Source of the DNA: Chryseobacterium sp.
GTDB lineage: Bacteria; Bacteroidota; Bacteroidia; Flavobacteriales; Weeksellaceae
NCBI GenBank assembly: GCA_027492795.1
Contig: JAPUEB010000024.1
Coordinates: 186,001 to 250,000 of the forward strand
DNA length: 64,000 nt
Direction: 5' to 3'
Shown here in pieces: positions 17,769-48,819 of this stretch. A model generated the notes under the pieces. The model did not search any database and was not told the DNA's origin. It was given only the letters and a program-made list of their open reading frames with translations. The translations under genes were made by a program, and so were the position numbers. The first letter of the stretch is position 1. Each line of letters starts with the position of its first letter.

Positions 17769-18275
17769 ATGACTAATTTCGAAAAATATATTCAACGATA
17801 CCTCGATTTAATTCCTTCCGAAAATTGGTTGGAAGAAATGGAACTCGTTGGAAGCGAAACGGAACTTTTTTACGAAAGTTTGTCGGAAGAAGAGGCTAAT
17901 TTTGCTTATTCGGAAGGGAAATGGAGTTTGAAAGTTCTACTGCAACACCTCATAGAAACTGAACAGGTTTTTAGCTATCGTGCGCTACGTTTCTCGAAAA
18001 ATGACGCCACAGAACTATCCGGTTTCGATGAAGAAATGTTTGCAAAAGAATCTAATGCATCGAAAATTTCACTAGGAGAATTAATAGAAGAATTTCGATG
18101 TGTAAGAAAAATGAGCGTTTTGTTTTTTCAGAATTTGAAGTTTGAAATTTTGCAGCGAAAAGGAATTGCCGACGGAAACAAGCTTTCGGTAGAGACCATT
18201 GCAAAAATGATTATTGGGCACAATATTCATCATTTGAATGTGATAAAGGATAGGTATTTGCCGAGTTTAAAATAA
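17769..18275 (+). CDS. DinB-superfamily protein
   Basis: 168 residues, four-helix DinB_2 fold. The likely metal histidines are in KWSLKVLLQHLIETEQVF (first) and in MIIGHNIHHLNVIKDRYL (two near the C-terminus), the usual H...HxxxH triad. Members include thiol-dependent S-transferases for low-molecular-weight thiols and DNA-damage-induced proteins of unknown role; this one cannot be assigned. It is followed within 10 bases by the left end of a mobile element. Confidence 0.8.
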   Translation: MTNFEKYIQRYLDLIPSENWLEEMELVGSETELFYESLSEEEANFAYSEGKWSLKVLLQHLIETEQVFSYRALRFSKNDATELSGFDEEMFAKESNASKISLGELIEEFRCVRKMSVLFFQNLKFEILQRKGIADGNKLSVETIAKMIIGHNIHHLNVIKDRYLPSLK

Positions 18276-18284
18276 GTGATTTTA

Positions 18285-18874
18285 TCAATAGGAACGGGCT
18301 TTAGCCCGTTTTTTTGATATGCAAATTCCATTTGGCTTTAGCCAAAACTTATAATTTTGTATTTTTGAAATAATTATGCCTTTTATCAAAGTTTATATTC
18401 ATCTTGTTTTCTCCACATTAAACAGAAAACAATTTCTAAAATCAAAAGATTTAAGAATTAAGATGTGGAAACATATCAAGCAAAATTCAGAAGAAAAGGG
18501 GGTTTTTATTGATATGGTCAATGGATTTTCAGAGCATTGCCATTGTCTAATTTCATTAGGTTCGGATCAAACCATTGAAAAAGTTGCACAATTAATAAAA
18601 GGTGAAAGTTCACATTGGATTAATAAAGAAAAACTAATTTCCGAAAAATTTTCTTGGCAGGATGAATATTTGGCAGTTTCAATTTCGGAATCTCACATTG
18701 AAAAAGTGAGAAATTACATCAAAAATCAAGAAGACCATCATACTTTAAAATCTTTTTCGGAAGAATATGATCAATTTATTAATCATTACGGATTTAAAAT
18801 TCTGAAATAAGTTTTGGCTAAAGCCAATGGAATTTTTGCAATTTTGTAAACGGGCTTTAGTCCGTTTCTATTGA
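18285..18874. mobile_element. 590-bp REP/IS200-like unit with 65-bp inverted repeats
   Basis: Left end 18285-18349 and right end 18811-18874 are inverted copies of each other at roughly 85 percent. Each carries two palindromes: an outer one, aacgggctttagcccgtt (right copy aacgggctttagtccgtt), and an inner one, ttggctttagccaa. One Y1 transposase gene fills the centre. The right end runs to within 6 bases of the tsaC start codon. A solo copy of the outer palindrome is at 42067-42090. Confidence 0.85.
18376..18810 (+). CDS. IS200-like Y1 (HUH) transposase
   Basis: 144 residues, full length for TnpA of IS200/IS605. HUH motif His54-Cys-His56 (SEHCHCLISL) and the catalytic Tyr114 in VRNYIKNQ are both present, as is the opening KVYIHLVFSTLNRKQF. 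Cuts and joins single-stranded DNA at hairpin ends. It lacks an accessory TnpB and is framed by inverted palindromes. A TATTTTTG box lies 9 bases before the ATG. Catalytic residues being intact suggests it is active. Confidence 0.93.
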   Translation: MPFIKVYIHLVFSTLNRKQFLKSKDLRIKMWKHIKQNSEEKGVFIDMVNGFSEHCHCLISLGSDQTIEKVAQLIKGESSHWINKEKLISEKFSWQDEYLAVSISESHIEKVRNYIKNQEDHHTLKSFSEEYDQFINHYGFKILK

Positions 18875-18879
18875 ATATC

Positions 18880-19428
18880 ATGGAAAAAATCATCGAAATC
18901 CTAGAAAACGGCGGCACGATCCTTTATCCAACCGACACTATTTGGGGAATTGGCTGTGATGCGACAAACATTGACGCCATCAACAAAATTTTTGAAATCA
19001 AAAAGCGAGAAAAAACCAAATCCATGATTATTTTGGTGGAAAGCGAAAAACGTTTGCAGGATTTGGTGGACGTTCCTGAAATGGCTTGGGAAATCATCGA
19101 TTTATCAGAAAAACCTGTGACTTTAATTTACGACAATCCCAGAAATTTACCCAAAGAAATTCTCGCAGAAGATGGAAGCATCGGTATTCGTTTGGTGAAG
19201 GATGATTTTTGTAAAAAGTTGATTTCAAAACTCAACAAACCTCTGGTTTCTACTTCAGCCAATTTTAGCGGAGAAAAATCGCCGATGAAATTCTCTGATA
19301 TATCGCAGGAAATTATTGATTCTGTTGATTTTGCCGTGGAAGAAAACCTTGAAAAAATCTCGGAATATTCGGGTTCTTCTGTGATTAGAATTTGGAATAA
19401 CGGGAGAATAAAAGTTATCCGTGAGTAA
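18880..19428 (+). CDS. tsaC: L-threonylcarbamoyladenylate synthase (Sua5/YrdC/YciO)
   Basis: 182 residues from the ATG at 18880. Makes threonylcarbamoyl-AMP from threonine, bicarbonate and ATP for the t6A37 modification of ANN-reading tRNAs. Core motifs: GGTILYPTDTIWGIGCDA, IKKREKTKSMIILV, GSIGIRLVKD and the nucleotide-site PLVSTSANFSGEKSP. It is the short form without the Sua5 C-terminal domain. Its start is directly behind the right end of the IS200-like unit, so the promoter must lie within or have been displaced by that element. Confidence 0.93.
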   Translation: MEKIIEILENGGTILYPTDTIWGIGCDATNIDAINKIFEIKKREKTKSMIILVESEKRLQDLVDVPEMAWEIIDLSEKPVTLIYDNPRNLPKEILAEDGSIGIRLVKDDFCKKLISKLNKPLVSTSANFSGEKSPMKFSDISQEIIDSVDFAVEENLEKISEYSGSSVIRIWNNGRIKVIRE

Positions 19429-24580: not shown

Positions 24581-24613
24581 AAACCTAACAAGTTTTTAAA
24601 ACTTGTTAGGTTT
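24581..24613. repeat. Palindrome AAACCTAACAAG/CTTGTTAGGTTT (right of RAYT-2)
   Basis: 33-base palindrome, core identical to that at 23947-23977. Lies between the RAYT 5' end and the next SRPBCC gene. Confidence 0.92.
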
Positions 24614-24631
24614 CCTAAAATCAATCAAATT

Positions 24632-32408: not shown

Positions 32409-32443
32409 GGAAACCTTATAGGTTTCGGAAACCTATAAGGTTT
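32409..32443. repeat. Palindrome AAACCTTATAGGTTT/AAACCTATAAGGTTT, copy 1
   Basis: 35-base palindrome with a three-base centre, built from the shorter palindrome aaaccttataggttt. An almost identical copy is at 48773-48805. Neither is next to a transposase in this window. Confidence 0.9.
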
Positions 32444-32449
32444 ACCGTG

Positions 32450-41897: not shown

Positions 41898-42207
41898 TTT
41901 TTTAGGAGCTATTTCCCGCTTTCCGCACTCGCTTTTTTTGGTAGCTTCGCTTCGCTCAGCCACCAAAAAAGAGCTCAAACAAATGCTTCAATCGGGGCTA
42001 GGAAGATAGTCTACTTATAAAGATTTGAAAAAAAGAAGAAATATAAATTACTTTATAAACATTAAGAAAATCGGGCTTTAGCCCGATTTTCAATTTTTAA
42101 ATAATAATGCCTTTATCCGAAAACCATAAATACTTCAAATAAACAATTTCTATAGTATGTTTGCTCTAAATACCTTTCAATAACTATATTTTTGCAAAAA
42201 TTTCCCA
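41898..42207. other. Gene-free region holding a structured repeat and a solo REP palindrome
   Basis: From about 41905 to 42003 runs an element that begins aggagctatttcccgctttc and ends caatcggggctagg, with an inner imperfect hairpin (tttttggtagc...gccaccaaaaa). I know this style of element as a frequent intergenic feature in Chryseobacterium-type genomes but cannot verify it here. The REP palindrome aaatcgggctttagcccgat is at 42067-42090. A TATTTTTG box at 42187-42194 precedes the TonB receptor gene. Confidence 0.55.
42067..42090. repeat. Solo palindrome ATCGGGCTTTAGCCCGAT
   Basis: Same gggctttagccc core as the outer palindrome of the IS200-like unit at 18285-18874, but with no transposase. 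It may also terminate upstream transcripts. Confidence 0.85.
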
Positions 42208-44622: not shown

Positions 44623-44655
44623 AAACCTAACAAGTTTTCAAAACTTGTTAGGTTT
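44623..44655. terminator. Palindrome AAACCTAACAAG/CTTGTTAGGTTT acting as terminator after the TonB receptor
   Basis: 33-base palindrome followed by TTTTTTT. The same palindrome flanks the RAYT at 23991-24533; here it is solo. Confidence 0.85.
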
Positions 44656-44671
44656 TTTTTATTTTTTGAGT

Positions 44672-48772: not shown

Positions 48773-48805
48773 AAACCTTATAGGTTTCCGAAACCTATAA
48801 GGTTT
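48773..48805. repeat. Palindrome AAACCTTATAGGTTT/AAACCTATAAGGTTT, copy 2
   Basis: Differs from the copy at 32409-32443 only at its centre (cc in place of cg). Both are followed by ttacc. Confidence 0.9.
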
Positions 48806-48819
48806 ACCAAAAAAACAAA

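Follow-up and report, generated by a model that had tools for sequence, protein, structure and literature searches.

A 64,000-nucleotide stretch of a Chryseobacterium sp. genome (assembly GCA_027492795.1, contig JAPUEB010000024.1, positions 186,001 to 250,000; hereafter the window) carries at 18284-18875 a Y1/HuH transposase gene, tnpA, and on either side of it, in opposite orientations, a ~67-bp sequence that forms two hairpins, here called the doublet. The locus raises the question of whether the unit travels as a whole, as an insertion sequence (IS) would, or whether the gene stays in place and only the doublet moves. We consider it probable that the second holds and that this is a system resembling repetitive extragenic palindromes (REPs) and their REP-associated tyrosine transposases (RAYTs), run by a transposase of subclass 1.2, with an anchored, vertically inherited gene and a mobile doublet of ~67 nt. 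This reading draws on the observed anatomy of the unit, the dispersal of the doublet and its intergenic sites, its co-occurrence with tnpA, its orientation, base changes that preserve pairing and purifying selection on the gene. The unit is built as follows.

18284..18352, + strand: left doublet, matching the 26 dispersed copies described below over the same limits
18284-18291: tag of the left doublet, ATCAATAG
18293-18310: outer hairpin of the left doublet, AACGGGC-TTTA-GCCCGTT, followed by an AT-rich spacer
18331-18346: inner hairpin of the left doublet, TTTGGC-TTTA-GCCAAA, with an AACTTA tail
18376..18810, + strand: tnpA, a HuH-Y1 transposase of 144 aa (Pfam Y1_Tnp, PF01797, E = 1.4e-23)
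18807..18875, - strand: right doublet, inverted
18812-18828: inner hairpin of the right doublet, followed by the spacer
18848-18867: outer hairpin of the right doublet, AAACGGGCTTTAGTCCGTTT, with a flipped loop and one mismatch
18868-18874: complement of the tag of the right doublet, CTATTGA

The initial annotation had described an IS200-like unit with doubly palindromic inverted ends, and its coordinates hold: the palindromes GGGCTTTAGCCC (18296), TGGCTTTAGCCA (18333), the complement of TGGCTTTAGCCA (18815) and GGGCTTTAGTCC (18852) are all present, as are the inverted ends and the open reading frame (ORF) with the Y1_Tnp domain. The ends are inverted over two pairs of segments, 18285-18311 with 18848-18874 (27 nt, 85% complementary) and 18323-18352 with 18807-18836 (30 nt, 87% complementary). 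The window contains eight matches to the palindromes with at most two mismatches, a number never reached in shuffled sequences (mean 1.44). When folded as single-stranded DNA, the left end gave z = -4.3 and the right end, with its flipped outer loop (TAAA in the frame of the doublet), a weaker z = -1.75. No tnpB ORF was seen beside tnpA among the ORFs of the window. What had been taken for the unusually long ends of an IS turned out to be something else, as a full copy of a repeat dispersed through the genome stands at each end.

The search of the whole genome (2.96 Mb in 46 contigs) returned one full unit and many matches of ~70 bp, each hitting both ends of the unit, once per orientation. 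Besides the unit ends there are 26 dispersed doublets, all intergenic by a simple ORF criterion, with the consensus ATCAATAGGAAC-GGGC(TTTA)GCCC-GTT, a variable AT-rich spacer of ~20-25 nt, and TTTGGC(TTTA)GCCAAA-ATTTA. The copies hardly differ in the tag (TCAATAG), the two stems and the tail (AATTTA), and the spacer is variable. In the outer stem, paired A-T to G-C changes that keep the pairing occur in 7/26 copies, and in one copy C-G is replaced by T-A. A flipped outer loop was seen in three aligned copies, one of which is the right end of the unit.

The initial annotation had also proposed that the outer hairpin moves alone, on account of a solitary palindrome elsewhere in the window:

42067..42090, strand not assigned: solitary palindrome AAAATCGGGCTTTAGCCCGATTTT, a doubtful member of the family

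This palindrome has neither the TCAATAG tag nor an inner hairpin and may be a terminator or a remnant. Exact GGGCTTTAGCCC palindromes number 25 in the genome, and a second palindrome lies within 60 bp of 24 of them, the one at 42067 being the sole exception. The outer hairpin was therefore rejected as a mobile unit in its own right; what is dispersed is the doublet in full.

The doublet is linked to tnpA at three levels. Among 53 genomes of the family, doublets were found in all nine with a close tnpA and in 7/44 without it (Fisher p = 2.6e-6), and a control with the pattern read backward gave no matches in the same genomes. Within 118 Chryseobacterium genomes, the median number of doublets was 16 where tnpA is present vs 6 where it is not (p = 4e-6), and all ten genomes with zero doublets lack the gene. 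At the loci themselves, across Bacteroidota, the core GGCTNNAGCC was searched for within ~160-180 bp of tnpA and occurs upstream of 56, downstream of 69 and on both sides of 51 of the 81 loci, compared with 5/607 control windows.

Several variants of this arrangement were seen outside the present genome. In G166 and G116, tnpA is flanked not by two doublets but by three or four, which alternate in orientation. Composite elements, in which a doublet is followed after ~20 bp by an inverted doublet, resemble the unit without tnpA; they occur in several genomes and are numerous in G035, and one of the two partners often carries a CGATG stem variant. In the single contig of G196, doublets with near-identical spacers recur ~445 bp apart near 0.3-15.6 kb, 1.21 Mb and 5.29 Mb and look as if they were part of a larger tandem or duplicated repeat.

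The orientation of the doublet follows replication. In G116 and G196, each of which is a single contig, the strand of the doublets switches in two long blocks, and GC-skew samples put these blocks on the two replichores, the skew of G059 being weaker and noisier. With the tnpA locus excluded, 23/25 doublets in G116 and 34/36 in G196 agree with their replichore (57/61 together); when one doublet was counted per 20-kb cluster, agreement was 21/22 and 20/21, respectively. Because genes too lean with replication, the sites were split by their flanking genes, and where these do not both run with replication, 14/16 doublets still follow it (p 0.004). Gene direction is thus insufficient as the only cause of the orientation, although it may add to the bias through selection, since in our genome all 22 doublets flanked by genes of the same direction are oriented with transcription; the spaces between divergent genes hold none. 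If positive GC skew marks the leading strand, as we assumed, the strand bearing the tag and the TTTA loops is the lagging-strand template. By analogy, such an orientation would be as expected for single-strand transposition of the IS200/IS605 type.

The encoded protein has the HCH motif at residues 54-56, WQ at 94-95 and Y114-I-K-N-Q118-E-D-H-H122. In 32 homologues H54, H56, Y114, Q118 and H121 are invariant, and H122 is at least 90% conserved. The AlphaFold model (predicted local distance difference test score, pLDDT, 83.5) matched in a fold search the TnpA proteins of ISDra2 and IS608 (2xma, 2vic, 2vju) and the RAYT structure 4er8; the search of solved structures at the sequence level, made with the single TnpA sequence, gave no match. 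The protein scored 54.2 with the NCBIfam IS200/IS605 model NF033573, just below the cut-off of 55, and 33.2 bits with the RAYT model NF047646, far below its cut-off of 80. Homologues were found nearly exclusively in records of Bacteroidota, and the median ratio of nonsynonymous to synonymous substitution rates (dN/dS) was 0.085 over 45 pairs, which indicates purifying selection.

Our genome holds one close tnpA and five further Y1_Tnp paralogues at 22-38% identity. Most of the five (loci L002-L006) are bordered by unlike palindromes, e.g., GCACTCCGTAGGAGTGC, CATAGGGTGAAGCCCTATG and CCGCGCGGAGCGCGG, which suggests that several gene/repeat families exist there in parallel.

The history of the locus can be read from its neighbours.

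17769..18275, + strand: DinB_2-family gene, the upstream neighbour in many relatives (domain match; synteny)
18880..19428, + strand, ATG at 18880: tsaC, threonylcarbamoyl-AMP synthase, the conserved downstream neighbour (TIGR00057, 139 bits, cut-off 123; synteny)

In 29 of the 30 Chryseobacterium tnpA loci sampled, at most 500 bp separate tnpA from the tsaC start that follows it, distances of 67-71 bp being frequent, and a DinB-like gene is also found nearby, upstream of tnpA. The region from tnpA to tsaC of G019 (Chryseobacterium cheonjiense by sequence identity) is contained in L126, and tnpA stands ahead of tsaC in four genomes of other genera (G004, G025, G034 and G055). The divergence of tnpA correlates with that of tsaC (Mantel r 0.69, n = 32), a value reached in 0/999 permutations. 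Because the site is shared by many relatives and the two genes diverge together, the unit is old, inherited in place and repeatedly lost. The earlier view that it had landed between the DinB-like gene and tsaC is therefore not supported, and recent insertion at tsaC is rejected by the synteny upstream of tsaC across Chryseobacterium and other genera. Empty sites between the two host genes, which the initial annotation had proposed to look for, do exist: in relatives without tnpA the DinB gene adjoins tsaC, with a gap of 13 bp in G038 and 27 bp in G026. The 27-bp gap of G026 (L071) contains CCAATAGGAAGTT, which is like the doublet tag and has no hairpins; it may represent chance, a scar or a target site.

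Based on the Y---Q--HH signature (here Y-I-K-N-Q-E-D-H-H), the protein fits subclass 1.2 of Quentin et al. (2018, PMC6006769). This subclass occurs in Cyanobacteria and Bacteroidetes in low copy, is listed with REP 'no' and is generally without typical terminal hairpins. TnpA shares with it also the WQ motif, a length of ~148 aa, the low copy number with paralogues of ~36% identity and the occurrence in Bacteroidetes (PMC6006769). It differs in the HuH motif, EHCH here vs DH[IV]H in PMC6006769, and in the hairpin cores that flank most homologues (on both sides of 51/81). The absence of hairpins and REPs is reported only as general and lies outside the sequence definition of the subclass, so that their presence does not by itself exclude membership.

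REPtrons and their RAYTs (class 2 TnpAREP; Nunvar et al. 2010, PMC2817692; Bertels and Rainey 2011, PMC3116915) are similar in organisation: they too have a single anchored gene, flanking inverted palindromic repeats, and cognate repeats scattered between genes and correlated with the gene, and the REPtron arrangement is found here. In contrast, the Y---NP motif is missing (Y-I-K-N-Q instead), the RAYT model remains below its cut-off, and the GT[AG]G head of REPs is replaced by the tag TCAATAG. Moreover, unlike a REPIN (a pair of REPs forming hairpins), the doublet is not an inverted pair of one REP; its two stems are non-identical, with the same loop orientation in most copies. RAYTs meeting the criteria of Nunvar et al. 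were found only in gammaproteobacteria (PMC2817692); that paper, which contains GGCTTTAGCC, lists the Haemophilus REP GTAGGGTGGGCTTtAGCCCACC, a different, GTAG-headed family. With the IS200/IS605 family (IS608, ISDra2) the unit shares the HuH-Y1 fold and the presence of two hairpins on one strand, and the orientation with replication fits the lagging-strand-template targeting of the family as described in PMC6006769. It differs from that family in that the hairpin pair does not enclose the gene, which in the family is placed between the left and right ends, and in that one close copy per genome sits at a conserved site, so the gene is not moving as a unit, with no tnpB ORF beside it. Class 3 TnpAY1 (Quentin et al. 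2018, PMC6006769) resembles both ISs and REPtrons and has atypical hairpins dispersed in high copy, but the present TnpA belongs to another protein class, with another signature and in other phyla. No description of the doublet was found in a search of openly accessible papers. In organisation and apparent life-style the system is a REPtron; its enzyme, tag and doublet are unlike those of each RAYT/REP class compared, and we do not class it as a RAYT. The REPtron interpretation of the initial annotation thus stands for the single RAYT-like gene, the inverted pairs of palindromes, the dispersed pairs and the one unit, and falls for the landing, the lone hairpin and the long ends. A unit fixed at this site without other copies had been named there as the contrary pattern; half of it is seen, as the gene is fixed whereas the doublets are dispersed.

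In IS200/IS605 transposition the enzyme binds hairpins on the exposed lagging-strand template, cleaves by means of its tyrosine and joins the element to a single-stranded site. In the REP/RAYT-like system that we favour, tnpA would remain anchored beside tsaC and be passed on vertically, and the doublet would be the mobile unit. By analogy with that biochemistry, TnpA would bind both hairpins at replication forks, during the single-stranded state of the lagging-strand template, its HuH/Tyr site, the catalytic residues of which are conserved, would cleave beside the hairpins, and the doublet would be joined into new single-stranded targets. As both hairpins share their loop orientation on one strand, like the ends of IS200-type elements, the doublet resembles a minimal non-autonomous element, in which a left-end and a right-end hairpin would be kept with almost nothing between them; tnpA would then stand between two oppositely oriented copies of the sequence on which its product acts.

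Several points weigh against this reading. The genome counts are phylogenetically non-independent and the p values given for the co-occurrence ignore kinship; the boundaries of the replication arcs come from sparse samples of GC skew, considered jointly with the doublet data, and one G116 doublet, near 1.0 Mb, lies close to such a boundary. The comparisons of G119/G166/G059 and of G107/G211, in which intergenic DNA was too diverged to align and no congener of our genome was represented, yielded no clean site from which a single doublet is missing. Doublet-rich Chryseobacterium genomes without a close tnpA also exist, with 61 doublets in G111, and in such genomes only paralogues of ~30-38% identity or none were found; the repeats may then outlive the enzyme, or another enzyme can serve them.

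That the unit, in its full length of 590 bp, represents an ordinary mobile IS of the IS200 type with elaborate ends, the doublets being its decayed copies, seems unlikely. The Y1_Tnp domain, the score just under the cut-off of the IS200/IS605 model and the composites without tnpA in genomes such as G035 agree with it, but nearly all genomes have a single close tnpA copy, its site beside tsaC is conserved across several genera, its divergence is correlated with that of tsaC, and the dispersed copies are single doublets with uniform ends instead of units with ragged internal deletions. It is very unlikely that the doublets are host terminators or mRNA stabilisers selected after genes, of which tnpA merely carries two. 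Their intergenic position (26/26), the direction of the 22 co-directional ones with transcription, their absence between divergent genes and the resemblance of a G+C-rich hairpin followed by T residues to an intrinsic terminator would all be explained in this way, and a secondary use as terminators is possible. Yet two hairpins with a fixed tag and a tail are more than a terminator needs, and neither the co-occurrence with tnpA nor the 14/16 sites that follow replication where genes do not predict orientation would be accounted for. We regard as very improbable, too, that the doublets are inert relics of an ancestral spread and that the present tnpA is kept for another host function, e.g., DNA repair. 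Purifying selection on tnpA and the doublet-rich genomes without it are compatible with such a history. So are signs that recombination acts on doublets, namely the three flipped outer loops and a collapse seen in G166, where a composite of two inverted doublets of G059 has shrunk to one hairpin flanked by a tag at either side, which shows that single hairpins can arise by collapse. Against it, doublet counts track the presence of tnpA, and variable spacers next to a constant tag, stems and tail are not what relics would be expected to show.

The REP/RAYT-like interpretation matters since Quentin et al. (2018, PMC6006769) had left subclass 1.2 TnpA proteins as relatives of IS200 that show neither IS properties nor typical hairpins. 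A substrate that both flanks the gene and is dispersed provides them with a function open to testing and suggests REP-type domestication outside the proteobacterial RAYT lineage. The REP/RAYT mode of existence appears to extend to a transposase group reported to lack such repeats. Tentatively, and with slightly less than even confidence, we propose further that the subclass 1.2 TnpA of Bacteroidota may represent a second, independent origin of REP-type systems, in which a domesticated enzyme of the IS200 lineage would spread a ~67-nt element of left and right hairpins at replication forks, the tag and hairpin families evolving with each paralogue. With a dispersed 67-bp repeat oriented by replication, single-strand transposition can be read out on the scale of whole genomes. 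The Chryseobacterium genomes, in which tnpA is present, broken or lost, make it possible to measure how repeats turn over once the enzyme has gone.

The tag is not confined to the doublet. A second family of palindromes, CAAAGGGTGAAGCCCTTTG, follows the same TCAATAG tag in our genome (L019, L027, L031 and others). In a sample of the genome enriched for doublet loci, TCAATAG was followed by a hairpin at 26/52 sites, compared with 1/66 for four control words. Other A+T-rich dispersed palindromes, ACCTAACAAGTTTTTAAAACTTGTTAGGT and AAACCTTATAGGTTTCGGAAACCTATAAGGTTT, lie in the window at 24583-24625, 32411-32446, 44625-44667 and 48773-48808, and an 8-bp tandem array of AACCACTC/AATCACTC is present at 1827-1918.
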